Below, piece after piece: positions 7,851-34,283 of a stretch of 34,283 bases of DNA. This stretch comes from Gracilaria domingensis. Taxonomy: Eukaryota > Rhodophyta > Florideophyceae > Gracilariales > Gracilariaceae. The stretch spans positions 105,988-140,270 of the forward strand of contig VCMS01000269.1 in the NCBI GenBank assembly GCA_022539475.1, read 5' to 3'. Made by a program: the position numbers and the translations under genes. The notes beneath the pieces were generated by a model. That model did not search any database and had not been told where the DNA came from. It was given only the letters and a program-made list of their open reading frames with translations. Position 1 is the stretch's first letter; each line of letters begins with the position of its first letter.

Positions 7851-7999
7851 AGCAGCTCGTGCATGCTCCCTCCTATCCGATTCTCATCGGCATCGCTCGA
7901 GCCGTCTCCACGAGGAAGCATCGGTATCTCAGATCCATGACTGCGCAGCATTCAGCGCTGTTTTCCAAGCGGACAGTGGCATCAGCTGTAGTGTTCAGG

Positions 8000-8500: not shown

Positions 8501-8599
8501 TCGGAATGAAGCGCGATTACACTATTGTGCAGCAAGCCGAGAAAAGATCGGAGTTCCGTCTGCGTCTCGGATCTTAGCCTCTTTGAGGGATTTCACGCT

Positions 8600-10350: not shown

Positions 10351-10399
10351 TACTGGTCCGGAAACACCTAGGTCGGCGAAACTTTGTAGTTACGTTTCG

Positions 10400-12130: not shown

Positions 12131-12137
12131 GAAACCG

Positions 12138-12446
12138 NNNNNNNNNNNNNNNNNNNNNNNNNNNNNNNNNNNNNNNNNNNNNNNNNNNNNNNNNNNNNNN
12201 NNNNNNNNNNNNNNNNNNNNNNNNNNNNNNNNNNNNNNNNNNNNNNNNNNNNNNNNNNNNNNNNNNNNNNNNNNNNNNNNNNNNNNNNNNNNNNNNNNNN
12301 NNNNNNNNNNNNNNNNNNNNNNNNNNNNNNNNNNNNNNNNNNNNNNNNNNNNNNNNNNNNNNNNNNNNNNNNNNNNNNNNNNNNNNNNNNNNNNNNNNNN
12401 NNNNNNNNNNNNNNNNNNNNNNNNNNNNNNNNNNNNNNNNNNNNNN
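12138..12446. other. assembly gap (309 N)
   Basis: A run of 309 unknown bases. To its left is the older element; to its right the sequence enters directly into the middle of the antisense ORF of the tandem element (equivalent to about 23781 in copy 2). The missing part of copy 1 (about 2.35 kb of internal sequence plus an LTR) is much longer than the gap, so either the gap length is nominal or copy 1 is truncated. Confidence 0.99.
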
Positions 12447-13854: not shown

Positions 13855-13892
13855 GTCACCTCGTGGTTCCCTCTCGTGGATTCTTCTCGACT

Positions 13893-13898
13893 AATAAA
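13893..13898 (+). terminator. poly(A) signal of the antisense ORF, copy 1
   Basis: AATAAA lies 38 bases after the stop codon of the plus-strand ORF and is followed by a T/G-rich stretch. It is identical in copy 2 at 25193-25198. It suggests the plus-strand ORF is expressed from its own transcript, convergent with pol. Confidence 0.55.
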
Positions 13899-14004
13899 GT
13901 GTCTTGCATTGTGATCTCTGATCTTCTTTTGTTTTCCTGTTAGGTTAGTTAGTTAGCTTTTCGTGTAGCGTGGCGTTCAACGGCTTCGATAACCCCCCCC
14001 TTCC

Positions 14005-17000: not shown

Positions 17001-18549
17001 ATACGGGTCTCTCCTCGTTTTTGGACTAGCACTACAGGGCTAGCCCATTCCGAGTTTGCCGGTTCTATAACCCCCTCGCGGAGCATCTGCTCTACCTCCT
17101 CCAGCTCTACCTCACGGGCCTTACGTCCCGCGCGGTATGGCTGTTGGTGGATGGGACGGGAGTCCGGTTTGAGGTCAATCCTGTGCTGGGTGGCCTTAAT
17201 GGCTCCCAGCTTACCCGACCACATGGTACTGAATGGCTCCAGGAGTCCAAGGATCCGAGCTCTGAGCTCTTCCCCTTCAAGTCCTATATTCACCTCCGTC
17301 TTCCAATTGGTTACTGAGTCGAGCTCCAGTTTCTGGTCTTCTCGCTCAGCTAGTCGCTGCACCATATGGTCTGTTCGCGACGAATTCAACGAATTGACAC
17401 TGCCCCCCCTTCCTTAGCATTCACGACCTCGTGGGACCATTGTGGTATAATTGTAAAGATCGTACGGGGAGCCGGTAAGGCAAGACCAATTACGGTGTGC
17501 TTTGGCAACTTGACCGGGCGGTTGCTAAAGTTACTCAGGTAGACCTGAAACGGTTTTGTCGGTATGTTGTCGACTATACCATTCGCCATTAAGGTCATGT
17601 GTCGTTCGGCCAACCGTGAATGGTTCTGAATGGATAACAGGCCAGGTTGTTGGCATGTGACCTTCACTACCAAGTGGTTCATAGGCGGTATTGTTACCGC
17701 CTTTGCCAATCGCACCTTGTTGGAGAGTGTGTTTTCCGGGACCGGTTGGTGTTGAGTGCGGTTCTCTTTCGTAGAGGCACCCTTGTGGTTACCAATAATG
17801 GCGATCCGGGGGCCATTATGGAACAGAACTGTCTTAGAACGTGGAAAAATTGCCCTGACATGCTGGTCTATAAAAGTTGTTCCGAGGATACAGTCTGTTG
17901 CCAGTTGGTTGACGACTATGAAGCGAACTCGGACCCTCATGGTATCAATCAATACCATTATGGTAAGCGCTCCCATGACGGTTAGTGGTCTGTTGTTGGC
18001 GTCAACCAGTGGGTTAGTTAATGTACATGGCTGAAGCTTATTAAGTTGTCTGTTAGTTAATAGTTTGGCATTCACCAGATTAGGTCCTGCCCCGGTGTCC
18101 AGGACAGTGACGCATGGTACCAAGTGGTTAGAGGTAAACCCGAGGGTGACGTTTACCTTATAGTTACTATGCTTGAGAAAGCATATCGGTTCGGTGCCGT
18201 CCATGAGGCTCTCCTCCCCTGTAACCAATGGGTAATTGTCCATACTTGCACCACTTGGTTCTGGAAGGCCTTCCGTCTTCGGACAGTTGGGGAAGGCCTC
18301 TATCCCAACTGTTCGGCGTTTTCCGCCTGCGGGGCGGGATCCGTTTGGTCCTGCTCCGCAACGAGGTGTACCTGATGAGGTGTGGCTGCATTGGGTCGCG
18401 CATTTGCGTGTCCCGTGCCTGCGCTCCGTGCCGGGGGCCCAAATATATCCTGGTGGTTCTGCTGGCGAGCAGTCAGGAGAGCGTTCCTGTTCTGCGGAGC
18501 CACACTTGGGCACGCTGTTGCCAAGTGGTGGGGCGACAAACAGAACCAA
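14005..18549 (-). pseudogene. pol polyprotein, copy 1 (broken)
   Basis: Order on the minus strand: protease with DTGA at about residues 151-154 of the first piece (18549-17386), RT with FCIDYRKLNA, MPFGLRNAPATF and an intact YIDD, and RNase H with DTDASDA and RTDHDSLRW (piece 17389-15893). Next come the integrase HHCC domain (H-x6-H-x29-C-x2-C) and the first catalytic Asp (15547-15170), the rest of the DDE core (TDNG then D-35-E), and the chromodomain (14241-14005). Frames are broken at a G7 run (plus 17403-17409; eight in copy 2), near 15940, 15676, 15550, 14648 and 14312, all at homopolymers. There is also an in-frame TAA at 15170-15172. RT residues read SYLIPRM where copy 2 has SYPIPRM. 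It lacks its own start and is probably made by -1 frameshifting from gag. Confidence 0.9.
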
Positions 18550-20567
18550 CAGAGGAGATTGCCGGTTGTGGGGTCCTTCATCGCGAGCGATGACGCGCGC
18601 GATGGGGGACGGCCTCCAGTAGGTACTGCACTCCGTTGCTGCGGGGATGGTCCTCGTTCACCATATTGCTTGAATGGTACCGCTAGGACCGGGCTGACCG
18701 GTACGGATACCTGTGATGGTGGAGCTGAGGTTTGTCTTGAGGGTGGCTCGCTGGATAGCGAGCTGGACCAAGAGGTATTACCGTGCGATCGAGTTGTCGG
18801 TTGCGCATGCACCAAGTGGACTGGGTGACCCTGGGAGGCGTATTGTGTGGACGCCTCCTCCGTAGTGGTCTCCTCTTCCTCTACGTCAAACACTGACCGC
18901 CTCGTTTTTCCTTTCTCCTTCGATGGTTTGCCGAGTGGTGCGGAGTCTTTCCTGGCCCCTGACCGAACGGTGTCGTCTAGTCCCTGTGCATGGCGGGCTA
19001 GTGCGTTGTAGTCGACCGTGCGGTTGGTAGCTAGGTAGTTACGAACCTGTGATCGGATAGACTTCGCCACGTTGTCGGCGTACATCGATTTCAACCTTTT
19101 GGTAGTAAAGACGCTTCCACAGCGGGAGGCTAATGCCCATAAGGAGCGAGCGAATTCCAATTCGGTTTGTCCCGCGCGCTGGCGGTACGCAAGCACCTCT
19201 GCGTACGCCTCCTGGATTACCTCATCGGTCGCGTAGGTTTCCAGTAGGAAGTTAACCACCTGTGGGTATGTTGTCAACATTTCCGTTTGGTCTTCGTCCA
19301 CCGCCATGGTGTTTCCTTGGAGGCGGCTGTGGAGCAACGCTCCAGCCTGACCAGTTAGGTAGAATTGAAACAGCCACATGGCTGCTGCCTCTGAAAACCC
19401 ATTCTGATCACAAGCGATCTTGAACCTTTGAAAGAAATCAATGATCGCTATAGGGTCATCCCCGCTAAAGCGAGTTTCACCCAGTTGGAAACGAAGCTTT
19501 TTATGATGCTTCGTTATCTTCTGAGCTACCTCTTTGGTATACTCAGCCTGTCTGTTCTCTAACCTATAGGTACGATAGTCAACCGCTTTGGTGAATAAAT
19601 CATTGAGCGGCGTAAGCACCTCTAGGTCAGTCTCCTCGTCGGAAGTTGAGTCCGAATCGTTATACCTTTTGGTCTTACCCTTGCGGGGATTCTTTCCTTT
19701 CTTCTTGCGAGAGTCCTTCCTCTTGCGTCGTGAACCTGTACGGTCGTCGTCTCCTGACGAATCCGAATCGGTGTCTGAGGACGAAGAGTCCGAGTCCGAC
19801 CGGCGACTCTTTCTCTTTCCCCTTTTGGTTTTCTTCTTCTTACCATTTGGTTTACGTCGACGCTCGTCTCCTGAGCTCGACGAATCTCCATCAGAGTCTC
19901 CACCACTTGGTCCTGACGGAGCTACACCAGTAGGTTGGGGGAGGTAAACGTACCTCGGGCCCTCCATCCCTGGAGGCTCTGCCCCTTTCCCCATACGGTC
20001 GATAAATCCTTCACCAGTCGGTTGTGTAGGAAGGTTAGGGTGGAGAATACCAAGTGGTTTGGTGGCGTCTACTGCAGGCGGGGGAGCTTGCTTCATGAGC
20101 GCGGCCTGGGCCACCATCTCAGGTTGAAGCTTAGCCCCCTGCTGCTGCAGAGCCAGCATAACCAATCGGTCGATGTGTCCTCGCACCTCGTTTTCGAGGT
20201 ACTGTAACACCACCACAGGTACCTTGTCGAGGACCTCCTGGGAGGCTCGATCAACTACCACTCGGGTGACCTCGTCCAAGTCCAGTCGCGGTCCGACTGG
20301 CACCTCCATTTGGTCTACCACTGGGGTTGTTACAGGAGCGGGCTCCGCCCTTGCGGAGCCTGCTCCTCCGTCCACTTGGTCAGCCCGGGGAAGGGTCGAG
20401 GGGCCCCCAGCCTCTCGGTCTACCTTCTTCCCCCTCGGTGGGCGTTCCTTCCGAATCAGGTCCTCCGGGTTATCCAACACCGGATAGGACACTGAACCCC
20501 GTATGGGGTGACCACTTGGTGGAGCGCTCGGCGCCCTATTTGGGTAGCGCGCGCCCCGTTTCTCCAT
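18300..20567 (-). CDS. Gag polyprotein, copy 1 (intact, 755 aa)
   Basis: This is the structural protein of the retrotransposon particle. The start is the first ATG after the primer binding site, 5 bases beyond it. The N-terminal 200 residues are Pro-rich with a helical stretch. Residues about 225-320 are strikingly charged, with Ser/Asp runs alternating with Lys/Arg blocks. Residues about 320-540 are a helical capsid-like region (FQRFKIACDQNGFSEAAAMW, then the 'YRQRAGQTELEFARSLW' block typical of retrotransposon Gag). A Ser/Pro-rich linker follows, and then a CCHC zinc knuckle (C-x2-C-x4-H-x4-C) at about 673-686 that should bind RNA. It ends with TAG and overlaps pol by about 250 nt in the -1 frame. 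At 755 residues it is longer than most Ty3/gypsy Gags, mainly because of the charged insert. Confidence 0.92.
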   Translation of the reverse strand: MEKRGARYPNRAPSAPPSGHPIRGSVSYPVLDNPEDLIRKERPPRGKKVDREAGGPSTLPRADQVDGGAGSARAEPAPVTTPVVDQMEVPVGPRLDLDEVTRVVVDRASQEVLDKVPVVVLQYLENEVRGHIDRLVMLALQQQGAKLQPEMVAQAALMKQAPPPAVDATKPLGILHPNLPTQPTGEGFIDRMGKGAEPPGMEGPRYVYLPQPTGVAPSGPSGGDSDGDSSSSGDERRRKPNGKKKKTKRGKRKSRRSDSDSSSSDTDSDSSGDDDRTGSRRKRKDSRKKKGKNPRKGKTKRYNDSDSTSDEETDLEVLTPLNDLFTKAVDYRTYRLENRQAEYTKEVAQKITKHHKKLRFQLGETRFSGDDPIAIIDFFQRFKIACDQNGFSEAAAMWLFQFYLTGQAGALLHSRLQGNTMAVDEDQTEMLTTYPQVVNFLLETYATDEVIQEAYAEVLAYRQRAGQTELEFARSLWALASRCGSVFTTKRLKSMYADNVAKSIRSQVRNYLATNRTVDYNALARHAQGLDDTVRSGARKDSAPLGKPSKEKGKTRRSVFDVEEEETTTEEASTQYASQGHPVHLVHAQPTTRSHGNTSWSSSLSSEPPSRQTSAPPSQVSVPVSPVLAVPFKQYGERGPSPQQRSAVPTGGRPPSRASSLAMKDPTTGNLLCWFCLSPHHLATACPSVAPQNRNALLTARQQNHQDIFGPPARSAGTGHANARPNAATPHQVHLVAEQDQTDPAPQAENAEQLG
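18318..18324 (-). promoter_or_regulatory. candidate -1 frameshift site, copy 1
   Basis: On the minus strand the heptamer GGAAAAC sits 15 bases before the gag stop, read as G GAA AAC in the gag frame; slipping back one base gives the pol frame. It is not a textbook X-XXY-YYZ site (the first three bases are not identical), but the A-site part AAC to AAA is typical. The same site occurs in copy 2 at 29623-29629. Confidence 0.35.
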
Positions 20568-20572
20568 TTAGG

Positions 20573-20590
20573 TAACTGGCGTCGGAGCCA
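20573..20590 (-). promoter_or_regulatory. primer binding site, copy 1
   Basis: Minus-strand TGGCTCCGACGCCAGTTA lies two bases (AT) after the LTR end ...GAAGCA and just before the gag ATG. It should pair with the 3' end of a host tRNA ending ...GGAGCCA, i.e. with G as discriminator base. It is not the usual initiator-Met primer (TGGTA...). The tRNA could not be identified from the sequence. Confidence 0.7.
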
Positions 20591-20592
20591 AT

Positions 20593-21428
20593 TGCTTCGG
20601 CAACGGGAACCAAACCACTCGGGTATCTCGTGACTTCCAAATCCTCCATTCCCAAAACCACTTGGTAATCCACAGATTTCTAAGTCGGGAGACCAAAATA
20701 TGTTGTATAACCGATCGGTGCGAGCTGCTAGTGGGAAGCCCCGCGTGGGCTCGACCCGGCGGAGGAGTGAAACGCGTGACACCTAATAGGTCGGCAGCAC
20801 CCACCGTTGCCTATAGTGCACGGTGACCAAGTGGTAAATACGCCCGCACTGGTGTGCGGCAGGCACGTATAACCCTCGAGGTCAGCAAAACTATTAGAGG
20901 ACTACTAGACTTACCAATTGGTGACTGTAGAACCGAACTGGTGTCAAATCAGCCTAGTTGGTGCTTGACTTTACCATTTGGTGTGGGAGGTTGGCGGCTC
21001 GGGGGTTTAGTACACCCGAGCGCCCCTCCGGCTCTCACGGGCCTAGTGCCACGTGGGCCACCGGGAGGTGCATTTGTGGTGCACCACCCCGGCCACATAT
21101 CTACACTACCTAGTAATTATTAATTCCAAATTATCGAGAATAGACTAATTAGTCCTGTCCAAGCCTGCGCTTGCGCGTCCCACGTGGTACAGTAGACACA
21201 CGTGCCCCACTTGCATGTTGACTTAGTCTTCGGCCCTCCCGCGGAGTTCGTCACCTCTTCCCCTGCGCCTCCCTGGGCGGCGCTGGTGTCCCGCCAGTGG
21301 TTTCGACTTTTCCGGTGGGGAAGGTATGGCCAGCTCGGTGTCCGACCATTTCTGTTTGCCACTGGTCCCCTGAGGTGCTGTGGTTGCCACAACGCCAGCC
21401 CCCGTTGATCTGGCCGAGCTATACTACA
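20593..21428 (-). repeat. LTR shared by copy 1 (5') and copy 2 (3'), 836 bp
   Basis: On the minus strand it begins TGTAGTATAGC and ends GAAGCA, so it has TG...CA ends. One edge abuts a primer binding site and the other a polypurine tract, which fixes both ends. It matches the right LTR from 20593 to about 21207 with few differences (for example three substitutions near 21048-21085). After that 0.2 kb of U3 differs, and the last about 30 bases match again. It contains at least five ACCNNNNGGT palindromes, an AT-rich island at about 21110-21155 and several CACGTG boxes. Confidence 0.88.
21112..21154 (-). promoter_or_regulatory. AT-rich island with 12-bp palindrome in LTR (possible core promoter)
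   Basis: The LTR is otherwise GC-rich. This stretch is AT-rich and on the minus strand includes AATTAATAATTA, a TATA-like element, preceded by the perfect palindrome GACTAATTAGTC (plus 21143-21154). The same island is at about 32416-32458 in the right LTR. It could be the core promoter of the sense transcript. This rests on composition alone. Confidence 0.3.
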
Positions 21429-21443
21429 GACCCCCCTCCTACC
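21429..21443 (-). promoter_or_regulatory. polypurine tract of copy 2 (3' PPT)
   Basis: Directly next to the TGTAG start of the 3' LTR the minus strand reads GGTAGGAGGGGGGTC. A purine tract at this place primes plus-strand cDNA synthesis in LTR retroelements. It confirms the LTR boundary and the minus-strand polarity of the element. Confidence 0.75.
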
Positions 21444-22376
21444 GACAGGCACGCCCCGTGGCTGCGAAGGTCCCACGGCGTTTGCCGCCTTTTCACCAAA
21501 CGGTCGTCGGCGCGCATCGCTTGGGGCACGGCGCGTCTCGCGATGACGCGAAGATGGCGCGGTGCACGGCGCGGTTCGCCACATGCACTGCAGCGCCATT
21601 ACCCACGCCGCCGTACCCCCCTGTGGTAGGTGCGATCGTACCTTACGTCCCTCGTGGTATTGGAACGCGAAACCGCGAACCGCGACCATTCAGGTTGATC
21701 TTGTCGCGCGCCTGGTACCACGTGGTTGTCTTCGCCTCTTTGGTCCCTCCCGGAGGAGTCCGTCACTCCATCTTCCCCTGTCCGTCCTCCCCCTGGGCGG
21801 GTTAGTCCCGGCTTACCAGTTGGTTTCGAGCCTCCTTTCGGTGGGGTTCGCAGTTGTCAACCGATCGGCACACCGCCCCCTCGTGGTGTCGCTCCTATTC
21901 TCTGTTGGCCACTTGGTCTTGTGCCGTACTGAGGTGATACCTCGTTGGTTCCGACACGTACTGTCTCTCCGCTTGAGTGAGGGCGCCACTGGGGTGTCGT
22001 TGCCTTGGGCGGCCGCGTCAAGGGTGAGGAGACTCCTGCCCGTGGCTCTTCAGACTTCGTGACCGTACCGGTGCTGACGCCGCTTCTACCTAGTGGTCTG
22101 CCTCATCGGGGTGTTCAGGCTTGATTCAGGTCCAGCCGAGGGGTTTACCCGACTGCGTGGCGTTCAGCGCCCCTCCACCTGGTTCCTCGCGGTCTCCTTC
22201 CGTCCCTTAGGTTCCCTCTGGGGTGGTTGTAACCTCCCTGGTTCACGGAACCCGTCCAGCCGGCGCACAACCCTGGTCATTTTCACGGTGTGTCAGCTCG
22301 CTCGAGCGGCGTGCCCGTTCTCTGTGACCCCTCAGGTTTCATCTAGTCATCCAATTGGTGGTGTTCCCCCTCTCGG
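21444..22376. other. spacer between PPT and antisense ORF (probable promoter/5' UTR)
   Basis: About 0.93 kb without a convincing gene. Plus-strand frames here are short but Pro/Gly/Arg-rich, like the C-terminal half of the following ORF (for example 21380-21805 and the in-frame piece 21726-21932). They may therefore be a decayed N-terminal extension or upstream exons. It carries four exact ACCNNNNGGT palindromes (21495, 21717, 21815, 22088) and several one-mismatch copies. It must hold the promoter of the plus-strand gene if that gene has its own. Confidence 0.45.
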
Positions 22377-25154
22377 TTGGTATCCTCCGTGGCACGCTCT
22401 CGCTCCAACTCGCGCCTTTTATACCTCATGGGTGATCAACCCGCTTCCCCAACGGGGTGGTCGATGACGTTCGAACGCCGTGAAGACGGTGTCGAGGAGG
22501 GCATCACGCGCGCCCTTCCCGTTGTGGTGGACCCCGGGGGTGAGACGGCGCCGTTTCAATCGAATTACCACGTGGTTGACTCTTCGCAGCCCTGTCTGCC
22601 GTCCCAGACCGGTACACCTGTGTCCTTTCCATCGGGCGCCGAGGCTCCCGTGGAGGCCAACCACTTGGTATTGGAGGTGCCGCACTTCGACCCTATAAAG
22701 GGATATTCGGCTTCTGAAGTCTCCCCCTCGGCGGAGGTCAACCGTTCGGTTCGCGAAACTGTTGCCTCCCGGTCGAGGATGGCTGGCAAGACCCCTGGGG
22801 TGGCACGCGGCCGCGGAGGTGGCATCTTCAAGCCTAACACGCGGTCGAGTACGCGATCTCGTCAAGACCCTTACGGTCGCGGTGGGTATGATCCCTACGC
22901 AGCCGCCGCGGGTCCAAGCAACGTTAATCCTCTTGCGGTGGCCGGTACGGTGGAGGCTCAACAGCTGAATCCTCATGACCTTAATAGGACGCACGGGCAG
23001 CCGCATGCCCACTATGGTGCACGCTTTGCCGATATCTCCGCCGAATTGGTCGCTCTGGGGAACTGGCCTTTCCACATCAGTTCCTCACTCTGTCCCTTGC
23101 GGTTCCGCCACATGGGTCTCACGCAGTATACCGCAATTGCCCGTTGGGATTGTCGCCGGTTGGAGGCGGTGCCTATGGCACCTCCTCCACCACGCAAGGG
23201 CGAGAAGCAGAGCCGGTTCGGTCGACAACAGTGTTTCCATGCGCGGCAGCGACACACGAAGTTTCTATACTACATCCCCGTGGCCGTACCGTCGGATCTC
23301 CCCTTCATCCGCTGCGATGGGGAGGTCCACTACTTCCGCCGTTTGGTAGATATCCTTCACCGCTTGGACGAACCTGCTACGCACATCGAGGTCGATCTGG
23401 AGTACGTCGCGTTTGAGCGCCCTTTAGATACCAATTATTGGACTGACCGTGGGAGGTGGGCGACCGATGCGATGGCTGAGAGCCGTGTTCGTCACCGTAA
23501 CAACCGTACGCGGACCATGTTCCTGTTCCACAACGTTGAGTATTGGTCGCAGAGCGACCACAACCGCCGGACATGGTATGTCAATCGACCCTCTTGGTGG
23601 GACCACTATGAAGTATGTCAGTGGCTGGAAGTGCCGACCCCGCCGGTCCTTGCGTACTTTGGTAGTAGCATCTCCCTCGAGAGGAACAACGCATATGCCG
23701 TTTGGTCGGTCGCGCGCAGCGAGTGGGCCGTCATGGTGGCTATCCTCGCCCTTCAGGCTTCCGTGGAAGGTGTGACTTGGGACACGCGCTGCCCTGACAA
23801 GTCTGTCGGGATCAGCGGAACTCAACCAGTTGGTCGTATCTTCAATATTCCCAACGATGTGGTCGGCGACATTCGTGCCATGGGGCTCTCCAACATCGTG
23901 GAGGGCACCAAATATACTGCGCAGCAGTTGGATGGCTACCTCACTGCGGTAAGTAACCACAATTGGGGGCCTGAACAGGGTTGGGATGTCTACGACCCGG
24001 AAGTTCATAGCATCGTGCCTCTCCAACAGCAGCACATGGCTGGCGAAGACCCATTTGGTAATGACGATACCGTGATGGTGGCTGCCGAGAACTATGAGTC
24101 TCCCGCATTGCCTCCGTCGGCACCTGTACAGGCTACTCCTCCGACCAGCGTGGCTGCGCCTGTTCCAAGTGGTCCGGCGAACCCTCAGGCGGCTGCTCAC
24201 CCTCCCGGACGGGCTGCCCAGGGGCCTCTTCGGGTTGGTTTCCAGTCGCTTCCGGTGAATACGGTGCCCCCTGGTGGTGATAGTGGCGCGATACGGAGCG
24301 CTCTGGCTCGTCTCAACCACGCCTCGATGGTGCACTTCAACCGTCCTGGTCCCAATGACATCCTCACCGCTGTGGATACTCTTACCAACTTGCTCCCCGT
24401 GGTTGCTCACCACGAGCGGCGCACTTCTGAGCTGCGACAGTTCCGCGACTACTTCCAGCGCAATCTCTACCGTGAGGTGACAGCCTATGTTGGTCAGTTG
24501 AGCAACCTTGTGGAAGGCCACGCGCCGTTACATCGACCCCCTGTGGAAAGTTTCAACCCGTACGCTCCTGCGTCACAGCAACCTGCGACCCCAATGGTAG
24601 GCTTTGGTGGCCTTGGTACGTATCAACTCCCTGGTGGACCTCCTGATGGTGATCCTGCGGCACCTTTCCATACTCCGCTTGGTCCTCACAACGTTCCTCT
24701 TCCTCCAGCAAGTACTGGGACAGGAGCACCAAGTGGTTTCTCAACTGGTTTCCGTTCGGCTCCGCTTCCGCCGACGTCCGGTGCTCCTAGGCCGCCTACT
24801 GGTCTGACCCCCGGTGCAGGGCCGTCTAGTGGTCTTGCTCCTCCGACCTCTGGTGGCATCCCTCCGTCTAGCTTACCGCCTTCCTTCCATCCACCCACTG
24901 GTCCTGCGAATACCATGCCGGTAGTCAGCAGCGGTACCCCTGCGGGACCTGCTGGTACTTCTGCTCCCTTACCAAGTGGTGGTGCGCCACCGAGCGCGGC
25001 TAGCGGCGGGGGCGGAAGCTCCGCCGGACCTATGTCGGTGTCCTCTGGTCGTGGAGGTTCCGCTTCATCTCGCGGGACCTCCCGTGGACGTGGTCGCGGT
25101 CGTGGAACCAGTCGTGGACGCGGACGTGGCCGTGGGTCCTCCAAGGCCTCCTAA
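22377..25154 (+). CDS. antisense accessory ORF of the retrotransposon (925 aa), function unknown
   Basis: This is the only intact long ORF in copy 2, opposite in direction to gag-pol and between pol and the 3' LTR. The first ATG is used here; ATGs 54 and 84 bases later are equally possible. Residues about 1-190 are low-complexity, with RGRGGG near 140. Residues about 200-540 are a compact, Trp/His/Arg-rich region (e.g. NWPFHISSSLCPLRFRHMG, RTWYVNRPSWWDHYEVCQWL) that looks like a folded domain. Residues about 570-890 are Pro/Ser/Gly/Thr-rich, interrupted near 640-720 by a possible coiled or helical part (HHERRTSELRQFRDYFQ). The last 30 residues are RGRGRG repeats of the nucleic-acid-binding type. 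There is no signal peptide, membrane segment, enzyme motif or envelope-like feature. Extra antisense ORFs at this position are known from some plant Ty3/gypsy lineages, but I see no similarity I can name. Confidence 0.8.
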   Translation: MVSSVARSRSNSRLLYLMGDQPASPTGWSMTFERREDGVEEGITRALPVVVDPGGETAPFQSNYHVVDSSQPCLPSQTGTPVSFPSGAEAPVEANHLVLEVPHFDPIKGYSASEVSPSAEVNRSVRETVASRSRMAGKTPGVARGRGGGIFKPNTRSSTRSRQDPYGRGGYDPYAAAAGPSNVNPLAVAGTVEAQQLNPHDLNRTHGQPHAHYGARFADISAELVALGNWPFHISSSLCPLRFRHMGLTQYTAIARWDCRRLEAVPMAPPPPRKGEKQSRFGRQQCFHARQRHTKFLYYIPVAVPSDLPFIRCDGEVHYFRRLVDILHRLDEPATHIEVDLEYVAFERPLDTNYWTDRGRWATDAMAESRVRHRNNRTRTMFLFHNVEYWSQSDHNRRTWYVNRPSWWDHYEVCQWLEVPTPPVLAYFGSSISLERNNAYAVWSVARSEWAVMVAILALQASVEGVTWDTRCPDKSVGISGTQPVGRIFNIPNDVVGDIRAMGLSNIVEGTKYTAQQLDGYLTAVSNHNWGPEQGWDVYDPEVHSIVPLQQQHMAGEDPFGNDDTVMVAAENYESPALPPSAPVQATPPTSVAAPVPSGPANPQAAAHPPGRAAQGPLRVGFQSLPVNTVPPGGDSGAIRSALARLNHASMVHFNRPGPNDILTAVDTLTNLLPVVAHHERRTSELRQFRDYFQRNLYREVTAYVGQLSNLVEGHAPLHRPPVESFNPYAPASQQPATPMVGFGGLGTYQLPGGPPDGDPAAPFHTPLGPHNVPLPPASTGTGAPSGFSTGFRSAPLPPTSGAPRPPTGLTPGAGPSSGLAPPTSGGIPPSSLPPSFHPPTGPANTMPVVSSGTPAGPAGTSAPLPSGGAPPSAASGGGGSSAGPMSVSSGRGGSASSRGTSRGRGRGRGTSRGRGRGRGSSKAS

Positions 25155-25192
25155 GTCACCTCGTGGTTCCCTCTCGTGGATTCTTCTCGACT

Positions 25193-25198
25193 AATAAA
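25193..25198 (+). terminator. poly(A) signal of the antisense ORF, copy 2
   Basis: AATAAA lies 38 bases after the TAA stop, followed by a T/G-rich tract and GTTAGGTTAGTTAGTTAGC. Only 150 bases separate this stop from the pol stop on the other strand, so the two transcripts converge and probably overlap at their 3' ends. Confidence 0.6.
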
Positions 25199-25292
25199 GT
25201 GTCTTGCATTGTGATCTCTGATCTTCTTTTGTTTTCCTGTTAGGTTAGTTAGTTAGCTTTTCGTGTAGCGTGGCGTTCAACGGCTTCGATAA

Positions 25293-25309
25293 CCCCCCCC
25301 TTCCTTAGC
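25293..25309 (-). repeat. G-rich purine tract at pol end (copy of an internal tract)
   Basis: Minus-strand GCTAAGGAAGGGGGGGG overlaps the pol stop codon (the TAA is inside it). The same 17 bases occur inside pol at 28707-28723. In copy 1 the pair is at 13993-14009 and 17403-17418 (seven G in the latter). It resembles a polypurine tract and could be an extra site of second-strand priming. Confidence 0.4.
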
Positions 25310-28300
25310 GACGCGTACCACGCGAAGCAATACCAGTTGGTGGGGGCGTTCGCCCTTGTTTGCGCCAGTATCGGATGATGAAGTTGTTAGGGATATGACC
25401 AGGTGGTTCCATAGAGTCGTGCTCGGGCGACCATCCATACCATCTTACCCGGTAGCGCATACCCTTTGTGGTGTGTTCGTGACCTACAATGGTGTCAATA
25501 GCGCACTCCTGAGTGTCTACTTGAGGGTGTGACTCTTCCATTTGGTCATGGGGTGCGTGGCTCCCCGTGGGTGGTGTGACCTGTTGGTCTTGCCGAGGCT
25601 CGATCTCCTGTGCCGCTTGGGTCGTGGGGTCAGCCGTTACGGCTCTGGTGGAAGGTTGACCGCTCGGCTGACTCATCATAGGAGGGGGTATGGGAGACGT
25701 TTGCTCCCTCTCCGCTTCCTGCTGCGTTGGCTCACCTATTGGTTGTGCATTCGCTGTCGTCGGTTGTGCGGCCTTGACAATCCTGTCGATGGAGACCGTG
25801 TTCTCCAAACCTTCCATTATGACCGTAGCGGTATGCTCGTCGGAGCGAATCACCTTGTATGGTCCCGTGGACTTGGGTAGTAGTTTAGAATTGATATCCT
25901 CCTCAAGGCGGATGTCCTCTTCCATCTCCGCTGGGGTTGGTCGCTTACCTTTTGGTGGCACGTCAAGGAAGACCATGTCTCCTGCTACCACTTTGGTCAC
26001 TTTGCTCACCGTTCGGTCATAGTCCGCTTTATACAGTTCTTGGGCTGCTGTCATCTTAACTTTGGCAGCAGCCAAAGCGGCGCGTAACTTCTGGAGTATG
26101 TCTCTCTTGACCTTCGCCGGTGTGAGTAACCCGGCCGCTTCCGAGCGGTCAGGTCCGGGCTGGACGATAATACCATGTGGTGTTCGCGAAAGTACCAGGT
26201 CGAATGGGGTTGTTTGAGTGACCCTGTGGACCTGGAGGTTGTACGCATATGTCAATGGTTGGACATACTCCGACCATGTGGTTTGGTGCTCTTCGACATA
26301 GTGCCGTAGGCGTGCCACTAGAGTCTTATTGAAGCGTTCCACTTGGCCGTTTGTTTGCGGATGATAGGCCGTGGTAAAGTAGTGCTTGACCCCTAGCATT
26401 GTACAAACCGCCTCGAAGAACTTAGAAGCTAGGTTCGAACCGTTATCGGTCAGTAGGTACATGGGAGCACCTTACGGGTAGACCCAATTCTCCAGGAAGG
26501 CTGTCGCTAGTGTCGTTGCCGTTTGGTTCTTCAGAGGTATGGCTCTGGTGAGCTTTGTGAACCTGTCGGTTATGACTACTACAAAGCGGTAACCCTCTGA
26601 GGTCTTGGGCAGGGGCCCCAGTATGTCGATTGCTACGAATTCCAGGGGCCCCGCCGCCGGGAATAGCTTTAGGTACTTCCTGTGCTTCGCCACACCACCT
26701 CGGGTCTTAATGCACGAATTGCATTGCGCCACATAGGTATATACATCGTTAGCCATATGCGGCCAGTAGAATTGCCTCCGAAGGGTATAGTACAACCGCG
26801 TGGCTCCAGGGTGCCCGAAAGCCGTGGATTGTGTGACAGATATAACACCCTTTGTCTTAATGACTCAGGTACGACCTTCTGGAGAGCTCCGTCTAAAGGT
26901 GAGCGTCTGATGAGGTACCCATTGTGGTCGACGTCGAAATGAGAATCCTTCCTTCCAAGTACGTCAGCGAGCGTTTTGCACAACCTATCGGTCGACTGTT
27001 CGCGTAAGAATTCCTCACGGGTGATTGGAGCGTGTTCCCCTTCCTCCACAGGAAGGAGGATCTCCACTACCACTTGGTACGTACTGTCATCATGCCAGTA
27101 TCCCTTCAGAACTTCATTGACCTCGTGGTTAGCTGGTTCTATAGTAAAGCATGGGATGTCGTCGTCCACTGGGTCAGTGTCCAATCCTTCGGTATTCAAC
27201 CGGGACAATGCATCCGCCACTCGGTGCTTGACCCCGGGGCGGTACTGCACATCGTACTCAAACTCCGAGAGTCTCAGACGCCATCGGGCCAGACGACCCG
27301 ATGCGTCCGCCAAGCCTAATATCCACCTCAAGGAGTCGTGATCCGTTCGGAGCGTGAAGCGCACACCATATAGGTAAGGACGTAGCATGAGCATGCTCCA
27401 AACAACCGCTAGGCATTCCTTCTCCGTTACGGTGTAGTTCTGCTCCGCTTGGTTAAGAGCTCTACTCCAATACCCAATTGGTGCGAGCTTGCCGTCCTCC
27501 TGTTCCTGCATTAGGCAGCAACCTATTTGGGCGTCCGACGCATCCGTGTCCAGTGTATACGGGAGTCGCGTTTTGGGCAATGCCAGTACCGGTGGGGAGA
27601 GAAGCGCTGCTTTCAATGTATAGAACGCCTCTACCTCGTCCTCTTCCAGGTGGTCAAAGTGTGTGGGCTGCCCCTTCTGCAACCTCCGGTTCAGGGGTGC
27701 GGCTATCTTTGCAAAACCCTTGATGAACCGCCGGTAGACGTTGCATAGACCTATAAAGGATCGTATGTCCGTCTGCGACGTAGGGAGCTTCGCTTCCTGT
27801 ACCGCTCGGATATTCCGTTTGGTCACTTCGAGTTTCCCGGGGCTTATTGTATGCCCTAGGTACTCTACCTCTTGGTTGAAGAACATACACTTTCGTAGTT
27901 TGAGGGTCACGCCTGCCTCTTGTAGCAACTGCAGTACCACTTGGACGTGCGAGAAGTGCTCCTCTATGGACCTCGAGTAGATGACTACGTCATCTATGTA
28001 TACCAATGCGGTTGTTTACTTCACTTTAGACAGTTTGATGTCTAACGCCCTTTGGAAGGTAGCGGGGGCGTTTCTTAAACCAAACGGCATGCGTAAGAAG
28101 CGATACAGGCCTGCGTGGCATGTAAACGCAGTCTTATCACGGTCACCCTCTGGTATTTCGATCTGCCAATACCCGCAGTTGGCGTCCAGTGTGGTAAAGA
28201 TGTTCGCATCTCCTAGGGAGTCGATGCATTCATCCATCCTCGGGATGGGGTACGAGTCCCTTACCGTTACGGCATTAAGTTTTCTGTAGTCAATACAGAA

Positions 28301-28706
28301 CCTCATACGGGTCTCTCCTCGTTTTTGGACTAGCACTACAGGGCTAGCCCATTCCGAGTTTGCCGGTTCTATAACCCCCTCGCGGAGCATCTGCTCTACC
28401 TCCTCCAGCTCTACCTCACGGGCCTTACGTCCCGCGCGGTATGGCTGTTGGTGGATGGGACGGGAGTCCGGTTTGAGGTCAATCCTGTGCTGGGTGGCCT
28501 TAATGGCTCCCAGCTTACCCGACCACATGGTACTGAATGGCTCCAGGAGTCCAAGGATCCGAGCTCTGAGCTCTTCCCCTTCAAGTCCTATATTCACCTC
28601 CGTCTTCCAATTGGTTACTGAGTCGAGCTCCAGTTTCTGGTCTTCTCGCTCAGCTAGTCGCTGCACCATATGGTCTGTTCGCGACGAATTCAACGAATTG
28701 ACACTG

Positions 28707-28723
28707 CCCCCCCCTTCCTTAGC
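28707..28723 (-). promoter_or_regulatory. internal purine tract in pol (possible central PPT)
   Basis: Minus-strand GCTAAGGAAGGGGGGGG encodes N-A-K-E-G-G-G at the protease-RT junction. It is an exact 17-base repeat of the tract at the pol stop (25293-25309). Central polypurine tracts inside pol are known in lentiviruses and in Ty1 and Ty3-like elements. Function here is inferred from position and composition only. Confidence 0.35.
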
Positions 28724-29604
28724 ATTCACGACCTCGTGGGACCATTGTGGTATAATTGTAAAGATCGTACGGGGAGCCGGTAAGGCAAGACCAATTACGG
28801 TGTGCTTTGGCAACTTGACCGGGCGGTTGCTAAAGTTACTCAGGTAGACCTGAAACGGTTTTGTCGGTATGTTGTCGACTATACCATTCGCCATTAAGGT
28901 CATGTGTCGTTCGGCCAACCGTGAATGGTTCTGAATGGATAACAGGCCAGGTTGTTGGCATGTGACCTTCACTACCAAGTGGTTCATAGGCGGTATTGTT
29001 ACCGCCTTTGCCAATCGCACCTTGTTGGAGAGTGTGTTTTCCGGGACCGGTTGGTGTTGAGTGCGGTTCTCTTTCGTAGAGGCACCCTTGTGGTTACCAA
29101 TAATGGCGATCCGGGGGCCATTATGGAACAGAACTGTCTTAGAACGTGGAAAAATTGCCCTGACATGCTGGTCTATAAAAGTTGTTCCGAGGATACAGTC
29201 TGTTGCCAGTTGGTTGACGACTATGAAGCGAACTCGGACCCTCATGGTATCAATCAATACCATTATGGTAAGCGCTCCCATGACGGTTAGTGGTCTGTTG
29301 TTGGCGTCAACCAGTGGGTTAGTTAATGTACATGGCTGAAGCTTATTAAGTTGTCTGTTAGTTAATAGTTTGGCATTCACCAGATTACGTCCTGCCCCGG
29401 TGTCCAGGACAGTGACGCATGGTACCAAGTGGTTAGAGGTAAACCCGAGGGTGACGTTTACCTTATAGTTACTATGCTTGAGAAAGCATATCGGTTCGGT
29501 GCCGTCCATGAGGCTCTCCTCCCCTGTAACCAATGGGTAATTGTCCATACTTGCACCACTTGGTTCTGGAAGGCCTTCCGTCTTCGGACAGTTGGGGAAG
29601 GCCT

Positions 29605-31871
29605 CTATCCCAACTGTTCGGCGTTTTCCGCCTGCGGGGCGGGATCCGTTTGGTCCTGCTCCGCAACGAGGTGTACCTGATAAGGTGTGGCTGCATTGGG
29701 TCGCGCATTTGCGTGTCCCGTGCCTGCGCTCCGTGCCGGGGGCCCAAATATATCCTGGTGGTTCTGCTGGCGAGCAGTCAGGAGAGCGTTCCTGTTCTGC
29801 GGAGCCACACTTGGGCACGCTGTTGCCAAGTGGTGGGGCGACAAACAGAACCAACAGAGGAGATTGCCGGTTGTGGGGTCCTTCATCGCGAGCGATGACG
29901 CGCGCGATGGGGGACGGCCTCCAGTAGGTACTGCACTCCGTTGCTGCGGGGATGGTCCTCGTTCACCATATTGCTTGAATGGTACCGCTAGGACCGGGCT
30001 GACCGGTACGGATACCTGTGATGGTGGAGCTGAGGTTTGTCTTGAGGGTGGCTCGCTGGATAGCGAGCTGGACCAAGAGGTATTACCGTGCGATCGAGTT
30101 GTCGGTTGCGCATGCACCAAGTGGACTGGGTGACCCTGGGAGGCGTATTGTGTGGACGCCTCCTCCGTAGTGGTCTCCTCTTCCTCTACGTCAAACACTG
30201 ACCGCCTCGTTTTTCCTTTCTCCTTCGATGGTTTGCCGAGTGGTGCGGAGTCTTTCCTGGCCCCTGACCGAACGGTGTCGTCTAGTCCCTGTGCATGGCG
30301 GGCTAGTGCGTTGTAGTCGACCGTGCGGTTGGTAGCTAGGTAGTTACGAACCTGTGATCGGATAGACTTCGCCACGTTGTCGGCGTACATCGATTTCAAC
30401 CTTTTGGTAGTAAAGACGCTTCCACAGCGGGAGGCTAATGCCCATAAGGAGCGAGCGAATTCCAATTCGGTTTGTCCCGCGCGCTGGCGGTACGCAAGCA
30501 CCTCTGCGTACGCCTCCTGGATTACCTCATCGGTCGCGTAGGTTTCCAGTAGGAAGTTAACCACCTGTGGGTATGTTGTCAACATTTCCGTTTGGTCTTC
30601 GTCCACCGCCATGGTGTTTCCTTGGAGGCGGCTGTGGAGCAACGCTCCAGCCTGACCAGTTAGGTAGAATTGAAACAGCCACATGGCTGCTGCCTCTGAA
30701 AACCCATTCTGATCACAAGCGATCTTGAACCTTTGAAGGAAATCAATGATCGCTATAGGGTCATCCCCGCTAAAGCGAGTTTCACCCAGTTGGAAACGAA
30801 GCTTTTTATGATGCTTCGTTATCTTCTGAGCTACCTCTTTGGTATACTCAGCCTGTCTGTTCTCTAACCTATAGGTACGATAGTCAACCGCTTTGGTGAA
30901 TAAATCATTGAGCGGCGTAAGCACCTCTAGGTCAGTCTCCTCGTCGGAAGTTGAGTCCGAATCGTTATACCTTTTGGTCTTACCCTTGCGGGGATTCTTT
31001 CCTTTCTTCTTGCGAGAGTCCTTCCTCTTGCGTCGTGAACCTGTACGGTCGTCGTCTCCTGACGAATCCGAATCGGTGTCTGAGGACGAAGAGTCCGAGT
31101 CCGACCGGCGACTCTTTCTCTTTCCCCTTTTGGTTTTCTTCTTCTTACCATTTGGTTTACGTCGACGCTCGTCTCCTGAGCTCGACGAATCTCCATCAGA
31201 GTCTCCACCACTTGGTCCTGACGGAGCTACACCAGTAGGTTGGGGGAGGTAAACGTACCTCGGGCCCTCCATCCCTGGAGGCTCTGCCCCTTTCCCCATA
31301 CGGTCGATAAATCCTTCACCAGTCGGTTGTGTAGGAAGGTTAGGGTGGAGAATACCAAGTGGTTTGGTGGCGTCTACTGCAGGCGGGGGAGCTTGCTTCA
31401 TGAGCGCGGCCTGGGCCACCATCTCAGGTTGAAGCTTAGCCCCCTGCTGCTGCAGAGCCAGCATAACCAATCGGTCGATGTGTCCTCGCACCTCGTTTTC
31501 GAGGTACTGTAACACCACCACAGGTACCTTGTCGAGGACCTCCTGGGAGGCTCGATCAACTACCACTCGGGTGACCTCGTCCAAGTCCAGTCGCGGTCCG
31601 ACTGGCACCTCCATTTGGTCTACCACTGGGGTTGTTACAGGAGCGGGCTCCGCCCTTGCGGAGCCTGCTCCTCCGTCCACTTGGTCAGCCCGGGGAAGGG
31701 TCGAGGGGCCCCAGCCTCTCGGTCTACCTTCTTCCCCCTCGGTGGGCGTTCCTTCCGAATCAGGTCCTCCGGGTTATCCAACACCGGATAGGACACTGAA
31801 CCCCGTATGGGGTGACCACTTGGTGGAGCGCTCGGCGCCCTATTTGGGTAGCGCGCGCCCCGTTTCTCCAT
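29605..31871 (-). pseudogene. Gag polyprotein, copy 2 (one-base frameshift)
   Basis: Same protein as the intact copy 1 Gag: capsid-like region, charged Ser/Asp and Lys/Arg insert, CCHC knuckle, TAG stop at 29605-29607. One C is missing in a C-run near 31709-31712 (four instead of five), which separates the first about 53 codons (31871 down) from the rest, open from 31680 or earlier. A single homopolymer change may be sequence error. Other differences are few (for example FLQRF for FFQRF, PYQV for PHQV). Confidence 0.9.
29623..29629 (-). promoter_or_regulatory. candidate gag-pol -1 frameshift site, copy 2
   Basis: Minus-strand GGAAAAC, in the gag frame G GAA AAC, 15 bases before the gag stop. 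Going back one base reads GGA AAA CGC, the pol frame, continuing towards the protease. The downstream sequence GGCCTTC...GAAGGCC (plus 29570-29605, on both sides of TCCGTCTTCGGACAG) can fold into a hairpin, as frameshift stimulators do. Confidence 0.4.
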
Positions 31872-31876
31872 TTAGG

Positions 31877-31894
31877 TAACTGGCGTCGGAGCCA
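31877..31894 (-). promoter_or_regulatory. primer binding site, copy 2
   Basis: Same 18 bases as in copy 1 (TGGCTCCGACGCCAGTTA on the minus strand), two bases inside the LTR end and just ahead of the gag start. The leader between LTR and gag is only 25 bases, so most of the 5' untranslated RNA must lie within the LTR. Confidence 0.7.
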
Positions 31895-31896
31895 AT

Positions 31897-32576
31897 TGCT
31901 TCGGCAACGGGAACCAAACCACTCGGGTATCTCGTGACTTCCAAATCCTCCATTCCCAAAACCACTTGGTAATCCACAGATTTCTAAGTCGGGAGACCAA
32001 AATATGTTGTATAACCGATCGGTGCGAGCTGCTAGTGGGAAGCCCCGCGTGGGCTCGACCCGGCGGAGGAGTGAAACGCGTGACACCTAATAGGTCGGCA
32101 GCACCCACCGTTGCCTATAGTGCACGGTGACCAAGTGGTAAATACGCCCGCACTGGTGTGCGGCAGGCACGTATAACCCTCGAGGTCAGCAAAACTATTA
32201 GAGGACTACTAGACTTACCAATTGGTGACTGTAGAACCGAACTGGTGTCAAATCAGCCTAGTTGGTGCTTGACTTTACCATTTGGTGTGGGAGGTTGGCG
32301 GCTCGGGGGTTTAGTACACCCGAGCGCCCCTCCGGCTCTCACGGGCCTAGTGTCACGTGGGCCACCGGGAGGTGTATTTGTGGTGCACCGCCCCGGCCAC
32401 ATATCTACACTACCTAGTAATTATTAATTCCAAATTATCGAGAATAGACTAATTAGTCCTGTCCAAGCCTGCGCTTGCGCGTCCCACGTGGTACAGTAGA
32501 CACACGTGCCCGGGAGCCCGTGACGTCACCACTTGGTCTTGTAGAGCCCCCGTTGATCTGGCCGAGCTATACTACA
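31897..32576 (-). repeat. 5' LTR of copy 2, 680 bp, altered U3
   Basis: It matches 20593-21207 of the shared LTR to about 32507, then has about 45 unrelated bases in place of about 195, then matches again over CCCCGTTGATCTGGCCGAGC and the terminal TACA at 32576. The TG...CA ends are kept (minus strand TGTAG...GAAGCA). The flanking sequence to the right is AT-rich and unrelated, so this is the outer end of the array. Confidence 0.85.
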
Positions 32577-34283
32577 CGTCAACTAACATTTATGCCGCTC
32601 AGAGGTCATCTTTTTTCGAGATGAATATCACGTTGGCTTTGGCAAAGTCGACGGCAATGTGATCAATATGTTCAAAACATATAGAGCTCATGAGCAGTAT
32701 TGTAGAGACCCTATCTTAGCGTTTCATTCAAATGTTCTTTTCTTGCATGGCATATATGTTAAGAATGTAGAGATCTTTCAGTTTGCTAATTTTGAGCATG
32801 CAAAATGAGAAATTATGACGGTTGTAAAATAGAAATATGTTCCGAAAAAAGTTAATATATGCTCCATACAAATGCACACCGTTACGTTGGCCGCTTTTAT
32901 TATTGTCAAAAGTGCACTTCCTGTTAATCTTGTGTTACTGGTCTGCAATTTTAGCTAAAATGAATCAAAATGTTGTCTTTCTACCTAAAGATATAAGCGT
33001 CTCGAACTTTGCAGAAAAGTACATATATCACCGACTTGAAATATTTGGAATATGTTGTGCACATCTTGGCATTATCGCCACGTTTCAGGCTACTTAGCCC
33101 GAGTTGGCGATGTATATATCTCTGCAAAATATGTCACGTTGTGACACGTGCTACCCAAAGGACATTTCCCACACGTCACTTGTAAAGCATTGAAACGCGT
33201 CTTAAAACGTTCTTCAAAATTGATGAGGATGTACACTCGAAAATACTGCAAGAACTGTCAATCAGAACAGGTTTTAATAAATTAGCTTTTTTCGAATAAG
33301 GCCTATTTTTCGCTGCTCCTTGCGGGAAAATGCGGGAAAATTGTAAACCAACAAACGCGTAAGGCAACGTTCATAGAATCTGCGATTTGTAAGAGAATAA
33401 AAACCTGACGAAAAATTTAAATAGTAGAAAGACATAATGTAAGGTAGATAAAACTTTCGTAATGTTTTCTCACGTGAGAAGCATAACACCAGCACTTAAC
33501 TCTATTGCTGCCGCCTTATTTACCGAGGATAAATACTTCAGAAACCTTGAGAATATTGTACTGTTCTTCAACACACCAAACAACACATCGTGATGTGTCT
33601 AATGTTATCATTGATGACTAATGTCAACTTCTTGAGACTAAAGAAAAGGAATGAAGTTCCGATTGAGACCCTAATCTAATTTTAGTCTTACATTTGTCTA
33701 TGAGAGTGGTTTGTACGTGAAATGTAACAAAATGACAATGCGTAGTAAAAGATATATAAAGTCTCACCTCGCTAAATTAAAAGAAACTGCAAAAAGGTCT
33801 ACTTTGTAACTTCTGCACTTTATATTTGGTTCATTCTCAGATGTGAAACTGCTGCATTCACGAAAGAATTACAATACGGCAACAAGTATGTTAGATATCT
33901 TAGACTGACCACACTTCTAACCATGAAGCTCAGGCCCAAAAACTGTGATGTTATCAAAGTTATCATCACAACTTAGCATGATAACTCTGATGCTATCATG
34001 TGATAACTTCGTAGTTATCATTATAATAATTCTAAGAGAATTGTCGCCGTATGTCTTCTTTTGAGGTCTTTTGTGTATTGTGCACCTTCTAATTTTTGCT
34101 CACAACAATGCTTTTCTCTGAATCGTTGTAACTTACATACACAAAAGCTTACTCGAAATGAATTTCAACGCTTCATTTATATGTATGCGTTACAAGATAT
34201 ATTTTATTTTTATGTCTTTCTTAGTTTCCGCATTTCTCGCATTTTCCTGGTGTTTTGAAGCTCTCGCTGTGAAGATCGGCTCC
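32577..34283. other. AT-rich right flank, no recognisable gene
   Basis: Composition drops sharply in GC at 32577, the LTR edge. Frames on both strands are 60-86 codons and unlike known proteins. Small structures are visible: TGCGGGAAAA twice in tandem (33321-33340) and a cluster of GATAAC/GTTATC words (33945-34020). This is probably host intergenic DNA into which the element array inserted. Confidence 0.6.
34001..34020. repeat. perfect inverted repeat TGATAACT-TCGT-AGTTATCA
   Basis: Eight-base arms with a four-base loop, inside a cluster of TGATAA/TTATCA words between 33945 and 34025 (for example GTTATCAAAGTTATCATCA). It could be the end of a small inverted-repeat transposon or simply AT-rich palindromic sequence. 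No partner element was found in the window. Confidence 0.4.

Follow-up and report, generated by a model that had tools for sequence, protein, structure and literature searches.

A short gapped dyad, a CC-containing half followed after 4 to 10 nt by its GG-containing counterpart, recurs through the whole of a Ty3/gypsy chromodomain retrotransposon of Gracilaria domingensis, and the enrichment is restricted, among the loci sampled, to one reverse transcriptase (RT) clade of gypsy elements. The element lies on the minus strand as two units in tandem, A and B, in a stretch of 34,283 nucleotides of contig VCMS01000269.1 (positions 105,988 to 140,270), here named the window. We propose, with a probability of roughly 0.38, that selection maintains the sites as a family-specific cis-element of this clade, built on a CC-(4 to 10 nt)-GG plan and acting as mini stem-loops captured by Gag; the RNA level, Gag as the reader and packaging as the function are what we infer within this proposal.

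Gapped dyads occupy the element in all codon frames

Between positions 21495 and 32537, in unit B, we counted 61 ACCNNNNGGT sites (the loose word, ACC-N4-GGT or ACCN4GGT) and 26 ACCANNTGGT sites (the strict word). A first-pass annotation of the same letters had reported 53 and 25. The excess is real, and the counts are higher than it claimed. The whole window holds 114 loose sites, where 100 dinucleotide shuffles gave 9.5±3.2 and at most 19, and 46 strict ones, where they gave 0.47 and at most 2. For the region 21208-32580, the 61 loose sites compare with about 4.7 in 200 dinucleotide shuffles and with 8.3 in 500 order-2 Markov sequences (maximum 20), and the 26 strict sites with 0.64 in the same Markov sequences (maximum 5). 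The excess in unit B amounts to about 7-13x for the loose word and 40-100x for the strict word, where about 20x, above our figure for the loose word, and over 100x had been estimated. ACC-N4-GGT ranks first among all gapped 3+3 words with gaps of 0-15, and ACC-N4..6-GGT sites come to roughly one per 100 bases in the window family. In the G. domingensis assembly (77.9 Mb in 680 contigs searched), ACCANNTGGT occurs 4164 times and the backward-read word 1620 times. The flanks are as first described, with two loose and no strict sites in window 1-12137 and none to the right of 32537. The description of a single element in about 11 kb had overlooked a second unit at 12447-21207, which adds 51 loose and 20 strict sites.

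The sites use every codon frame, lie on either coding strand and extend into noncoding DNA. Of the 61 in unit B, the five coding parts contain 47 and the two end parts 12, with 2 falling between parts. Density is lowest in pol2 (3.0 per kb) and highest in the long terminal repeat (LTR) and leader (9.9 per kb); each of the parts named by the annotation (LTR/leader, gag, pol and an antisense open reading frame, ORF) does contain them. The different codon frames that it had noticed in Gag were confirmed by site starts of 5/4/5 over the three gag frames. Codon-preserving shuffles (300 per reading frame), which it had proposed as a check, left the observed counts unmatched in four of five frames: 14 vs 2.6 in gag (maximum 8), 11 vs 3.2 in pol1 (maximum 7), 9 vs 3.1 in pol3 (maximum 8) and 9 vs 2.3 in the antisense 925-aa ORF (maximum 6). 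In pol2, with 4 vs 1.3, the largest shuffle equals the observed count. A protein repeat, codon usage or composition as the origin of the sites was rejected in view of these shuffles, the use of three frames and the noncoding sites, in agreement with the earlier view that a protein-level repeat cannot be the explanation; for the greater part of the element, an origin at the protein level is excluded. Spread of the sites by tandem repeats was likewise rejected, as the window contains no tandem arrays.

The dyad is confined to one clade among the loci sampled

We compared the window family with 12 other gypsy loci, 11 of them taken from the 100 listed RT places (973 in all) and chosen for differing RT words, and one (L031) from a second pattern; at most 4 kb were read per locus. 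None of the 12 contains more than 4 ACCN4GGT per 3-4 kb, compared with 28 in 5.2 kb of the window family. Ten chaperonin loci, used as host control (from 16 matches, one on a plastid-like contig), hold 3, which is the chance level. Counts in other LTR families and in host DNA were among the checks that the annotation had suggested, and the host result supports its reading.

The general form CC-Nk-GG, where k is the spacer length, was considered enriched from 3 standard deviations (sd) upward. It is enriched at 9 of the 12 gypsy loci, all in one RT clade with the window element, and stays below this mark at every k in the three outgroup loci (L033, L041 and L042); in L042 the CC4-6GG ratio is 1.38x. 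The reversed form GG-Nk-CC gives single peaks only, in L037, L039 and the left flank of the window. In the RT tree, ten loci, window element included, stand apart from the three outgroup loci with support 100/100.

We distinguish two classes, which were defined on the same data as those on which they were tested. Class I, with k=4-6 and family-specific words, comprises the window family (including L032, a 94% copy) and loci L035 and L043, the last two raised at k 4-5. Class II comprises seven loci (L031, L034 and L036-L040), in which CC-Nk-GG is raised in the range k 5-10. The tree groups class II with support 100/99, gives only 47/25 to the class I branch and places L042 on a long branch. In L035 (C2) and L043 (C12) the word is CCG-NN-CGG (24 vs 3.1 expected in L043), whose plan, CC-X-NN-X'-GG, is also that of the window family. 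The 10-bp palindrome first noticed is a single family's version of a CC…GG dyad common to a clade.

In codon shuffles of class II, observed counts of dyads with complementary arms were 96 vs 33.6 in L031, 67 vs 22.4 in L037 and 62 vs 22.7 in L034, and the remaining four loci lay 3.7-7.3 sd above their shuffles; three outgroup frames were within 1.5 sd. The chaperonin loci gave a pooled ratio of 1.06 for 3-bp stems; their hairpin ratios lay at 0.86-1.47x, and CC4-6GG stood at 0.73-1.09x in the nuclear loci among them. Together with gap-matched controls, the codon shuffles and the outgroup and host loci make it very improbable that the pattern reflects an unrecognized compositional or coding effect, such as codon-pair bias, or shared ancestry of the sites, even though the class II loci are related, share part of their sites and belong to classes defined on the tested data. 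Four of six Copia loci (of 150 scored) were also near 1. On low counts, Copia locus L055 showed 1.92x for CC4-6GG and 1.80x for CC6-10GG, L058 showed 2.16x for CC6-10GG and 1.54x for hairpins, and L057, also on low counts, 1.46x for CC4-6GG; flanking sequence may contribute to these raised ratios. One chaperonin match lies at 173-175 kb of C680, where GC content is 0.29, and C680 is probably the plastid genome.

The window-family site is partly paired, partly sequence-read and directional

In unit B, ACC-Nk-GGT occurs 5, 4, 1, 6, 61, 38, 17, 8, 2 and 6 times for k=0 to 9. Gaps 4, 5 and 6 are raised over about 5 each and gap 8 is near background, a spacer distribution that resembles hairpin loops. 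What had been called a 10-bp palindrome does have dyad arms, but its spacer varies and its two central bases are asymmetric.

With a gap of 4, words that differ by one base in the inner CC or GG do not exceed expectation, and those that differ by one base at the outer position are raised (CCC-GGT 25 vs 7.3, TCC-GGT 24 vs 9.3). So are words in which the loop-side C-G pair has been exchanged for another complementary pair (ACA-TGT 6 vs 1.7, ACG-CGT 8 vs 2.8, ACT-AGT 5 vs 1.8). The next inner pair covaries, being complementary in 36 of 61 sites vs 24.8 expected (p=0.0002); a C there faces a G in 6 of 9 (p=0.0005). The flanking pair shuns complementarity (6 vs 14.9, p=0.004). Read along the gag-pol strand, the centre has an orientation: loop position 2 is A or C in 53 of 61 sites, its mirror position in 32 of 61 (Fisher p=6e-5). 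The same position is also A-rich at k=4 in L035 (17/42) and L043 (21/46). Because of the covariation, the oriented centre and a preference for an outer A-T pair, described below, we conclude that pairing accounts for one part of the site and sequence reading for another, and that it is directional. A basic helix-loop-helix (bHLH) E-box was rejected as the whole story, since the A and T flanking the centre are only partly conserved given ACC/GGT. CpG decay from CCGNNCGG to CCANNTGG was also considered and set aside.

Class II carries bounded, hairpin-like arms

Class II arms can pair by Watson-Crick rules over about four positions, with free sequence inside CC/GG. CCxy-N4-y'x'GG occurs 77 times vs 7.9, and 16 of 16 xy words are above expectation (in seven related loci, whose counts are not independent). 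The complementarity is bounded, with the -2 pair at background and the arms ending at 4-5 bp. Inverted arms of 4 bp are raised at gaps 1-9, with a peak of 3.16x at gap 4; plain-complement pairs are raised as well, up to 1.77x at gap 4, and direct repeats up to 1.4x at gaps 2 and 5.

In the element at L037, the density is raised from LTR to LTR. Past one end it is at background (4 and 2 vs 4.8 in the last two 500-base tiles of L063), and past the other it is still raised over the 0.2 kb read. The LTRs of this element (L062:223-807 and L063:2352-2935) are 81.6% identical, in a mosaic of identical and very different blocks, and given this mosaic nothing was read from the pair as a clock. In the 3.7 kb of its pol part, in-frame stops number only two.

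Most comparisons show retention of sites, and the window family shows no gain by mutation

We measured how often both halves of CC-Nk-GG are kept between loci, relative to wider-spaced controls. In class II, CC-N5..10-GG kept both halves in 41.8% of 6260 cases vs 29.0% of 14574 controls (21 pairs in both directions, the 21 comparisons not being independent), and retention between L035 and L043 was likewise above controls (42.2% of 135 vs 27.4% of 756). The outgroup gave 18.6% of 279 vs 17.9% of 1038, and the 94% copy L032 gave 85.1% of 47 vs 81.4% of 295. Class II stems of 4 bp were intact in 752 of 4223 cases vs 998 of 14081, above control in 21 of 21 pairs, and compensatory double changes were found in 795 of 1777 vs 2256 of 5877.

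Young mutations were sampled in 28 near-identical copies of the window family. The 210 singletons gained 2 ACC-N4..6-GGT dyads and lost 13 (random expectation 1.2 and 13.7), and the 168 shared variants gained none and lost 9 (1.3 and 9.8). There is thus no mutational gain in the window family, and present-day mutation would erase dyads, not build them. Since it gains and loses dyads at the random rate, and so would erase the pattern, class I is most simply explained by selection over long times.

These numbers also bear on the possibility that the dyads are built by biased mutation, with the RT of the clade copying one arm from the other in short template switches. Pairs that are Watson-Crick only, the strand symmetry of class II, its want of a spacer preference and some compensatory excess would all follow from such a process; gains and losses at random expectation in the window family, arms bounded at 4-5 bp and a fixed class I word would not, and we regard it as improbable.

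Mini stem-loops, DNA operators or hairpins in cDNA

In the proposed mechanism, the sites would form mini stem-loops with a stem of 3-5 bp and a loop of about 4-6 nt, acting in the single-stranded genome of the element, chiefly the sense genomic RNA. The nucleocapsid part of Gag would capture them as many weak packaging or assembly contacts; a Gag with a zinc knuckle would be the natural candidate reader. The families would have drifted to their own words, ACC[A-A/C-N-T]GGT in the window family and CCG-NN-CGG in L035 and L043. The excess of 4-bp hairpins is 2.80x in class II and 1.45x in the window family, compared with 2.08x in phage MS2, 1.75x in Qbeta and 1.05x in the outgroup.

Several observations weigh against this proposal. 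Folding energy (at most 110 windows per set) is only slightly under that of shuffles, with mean z of -0.3 to -0.8 where the sense strands of MS2 and Qbeta reach -1.2 to -2.7, and has no clear strand difference. Hairpins are not favored by their native flanks (at most 260 hairpins per set; class II -0.007±0.022, window family +0.021±0.031); the same test gave +0.098±0.037 in Qbeta and +0.049±0.034, itself weak, in MS2. Class II stems with one G.U pair are at 1.14x, like those with one A.C (1.16x), and the 3-5 nt spacer of class II is flat in composition, with no clear loop sequence preference. The outer A-T of the window-family site (61 vs 8.2) is little replaced by other Watson-Crick pairs (CCC-GGG 8 vs 4.3, GCC-GGC 5 vs 3.5, TCC-GGA 4 vs 4.4), which looks like sequence reading. 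Retention is small between the window family and L035 or L043 (23.7% of 190 vs 19.8% of 1003); between L035 and L043, intact 4-bp stems differ little from controls (8/70 vs 40/564) and per-pair identity is below control (0.468 vs 0.501). Finally, young polymorphism shows no clear protection of sites, with singletons at 28 of 168 site positions vs 706 of 4892 elsewhere and shared variants at 4 of 168 vs 173 of 4892, although undepleted polymorphism is expected for copies that no longer matter. The missing G.U excess was first read as a sign of DNA, but MS2 and Qbeta behave alike, so that G.U counting decides nothing between RNA and DNA.

Because folding energy is near that of shuffles and the flanks are neutral, the sites do not belong to any stable fold of the RNA. 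A rigid DNA dimer site also fits poorly with spacings of 4-6 and 5-10, free arms that covary and an oriented centre. Of the two options offered by the annotation, a dimeric protein on double-stranded DNA or a repeated RNA hairpin, neither the rigid dimer site nor a thermodynamically selected hairpin therefore fits well, and it is the lack of a stable fold, together with the evidence against a rigid dimer, that leads us to favor mini stem-loops captured by a protein.

A wider DNA-level alternative is that the sites are double-stranded operators along the element, bound by a dimeric protein of the element itself (for example, the 925-aa ORF) or of the host, and serving in VANC-type anti-silencing or as a chromatin mark. 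Family-specific words, outer preferences like those of a position weight matrix, the near-dyad form of ACCANNTGGT and CCGNNCGG, the missing RNA-folding signature in the energy and flank tests and the presence of sites in LTR and internal DNA alike would all suit operators. Their flexible spacing, the covariation of class II arms of many sequences, the oriented centre and a 925-aa ORF with no recognizable DNA-binding domain in Pfam and PDB searches suit them less, and we hold this alternative to be rather unlikely. The dyads could instead act as mini-hairpins in single-stranded complementary DNA (cDNA) while it is being reverse-transcribed, where nucleocapsid would bind them or they would influence strand transfer. 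The geometry is equally hairpin-like there, the pairs are Watson-Crick only and the sites are confined to one RT clade among the loci sampled, but the orientation of the class I loop fits RNA and cDNA equally, and cDNA as the place of action has, in our judgment, a low probability.

Relation to known systems

Genome-scale ordered RNA structure resembles the dyads in being a pattern at synonymous sites over an entire genome. The window element and its relatives differ in their weak folding-energy signature, with z values that are not well below shuffles as those of the phage sense strands are.

The nearest known kinds that we found are Sirevirus RM boxes and dispersed viral packaging signals. 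RM boxes are palindromes with a CGG-CCG core in noncoding regions of Ty1/copia elements, the LTRs and upstream of ENV (PMC2829016). The dyads resemble them as high-copy, dyad-symmetric, family-specific words with a common GC core in LTR retrotransposons; unlike them, they occur in a Ty3/gypsy element and throughout it, mostly inside gag, pol and the opposite ORF (PMC2829016). Packaging signals of single-stranded RNA viruses are described as many short stem-loop sites with a common recognition motif (PMC6281560). Many short stem-loop-like sites are likewise spread over the element, with a 4-bp hairpin excess similar to that of MS2 and Qbeta. A shared oriented loop motif is present in class I and was not seen in class II. 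The differences are that this is an LTR retrotransposon, that the word varies by family and that the protein contact is only proposed (PMC6281560); that the hairpins are unfavored in folded RNA, by energy and context, belongs with the points against our proposal. The target motifs of VANC proteins in Arabidopsis VANDAL transposons are noncoding, often tandem repeats with a known transposon-encoded binder (PMC5735166). They share with our sites a short element-specific motif that changes between related elements, whereas the window holds no arrays, 47 of 61 sites are in coding parts and a binder is only hypothetical (PMC5735166). We found no report of an element-wide dyad pattern in a gypsy retrotransposon in the open-licence literature searched.

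The element and its surroundings

The features of the window are listed in Table 1. RT and RNase H are followed by integrase and chromodomain in broken frames (Pfam profile matches), the order of a chromovirus. The chromodomain match to PF00385 (27.9 bits) is above the cut-off of 25.1, and the integrase-end match to PF13683 (21.9 bits) is below that of 26.5. A C-X2-C-X4-H-X4-C zinc knuckle was recognized by eye in the gag translation.

Table 1. Features of the retrotransposon in the window, with their dyad counts.
Feature	Position	Strand	Remarks
Unit B	21429-32576	-	From 5' LTR start (32576) up to but excluding the middle LTR; 61 ACCN4GGT, 26 ACCANNTGGT
Unit A	12447-21428	-	Truncated second unit, from middle LTR start (21428); 51 ACCN4GGT, 20 strict
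LTR/leader part of unit B	31774-32576		8 ACCN4GGT, 9.9 per kb, densest (counted over 31774-32580)
gag reading frame	29605-31773	-	14 ACCN4GGT, frames 5/4/5
pol1	28016-29962	-	First part of RT (PF00078); weak protease match PF13975 below cut-off; 11 ACCN4GGT
pol2	26669-28015	-	Second part of RT, RNase H (PF00078, PF17917, PF17919); 4 ACCN4GGT
pol3	25305-26471	-	Integrase end (PF13683 below cut-off), chromodomain (PF00385); 9 ACCN4GGT
925-aa ORF, RG-rich tail	22377-25154	+	Opposite to gag-pol; 9 ACCN4GGT
3' noncoding side of unit B and part of middle LTR	21208-22376		4 ACCN4GGT, 3.4 per kb

Unit ends were set by eye from a 32-bp repeat (21397-21428 and 32545-32576) and the adjoining purine-rich tract. 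The two units have the middle LTR in common, and 12447-21207 of unit A is 98.3% identical to 23781-32511 across the aligned 8.8 kb. Beyond the common 32 bp and before the two rejoin, there are 33 bp (32512-32544) in the 5' LTR of unit B and 189 bp (21208-21396) in the middle LTR. Unit A stops at a run of 309 N (12138-12446); from 12447 on it has many scattered indels and substitutions relative to unit B, and the gag-pol parts of the two units differ at only about a dozen bases. The stretch after the N run resembles low-quality assembly, and the tandem arrangement may be an assembly product.

The window family is common, with matches at 40 of 40 scored places (of 646 candidates), 39 at 98-100% and one at 94%. 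The named ones among 120 listed RT-RNase H relatives include four from Chondrus crispus, three from Agarophyton chilense and one from a bacterial metagenome-assembled genome. The DNA of the 925-aa ORF is present at 40 of 40 scored places (of 143 candidates, its own included) with 90-100% identity. The protein has no Pfam match, no PDB match and no protein relatives at E 1e-3, and the structure predicted for residues 241-600 was unusable (mean predicted local distance difference test, pLDDT, 31.7). An Rfam search of the window, L036 and L043 gave zero matches, and of five pattern matches in a viral contig collection none is a relative. To the left, window 4000-8000 matches 40 other places with 83-87% identity, at least four of which (C5, C7, C15 and C16) sit within 1 kb of an RT match, which suggests that the left flank is an old gypsy copy. 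A weaker form of the class II pattern is present there.

Significance for retroelement biology

To our knowledge, few models apart, there is little understanding of how an LTR retrotransposon selects its own RNA or marks its own DNA. A candidate mark that is present in every gene, differs by family and is missing in sister loci makes this question testable. We give slightly less than even odds to the broader idea that the clade carries a second cis-code over gag, pol and LTR, in which word and spacing would co-evolve with a family-specific reader as a self-mark for packaging or anti-silencing. If the sites are selected, a second code would be overlaid on the protein code and, if this is true, synonymous sites of a retroelement would be under dense selection unrelated to its proteins.

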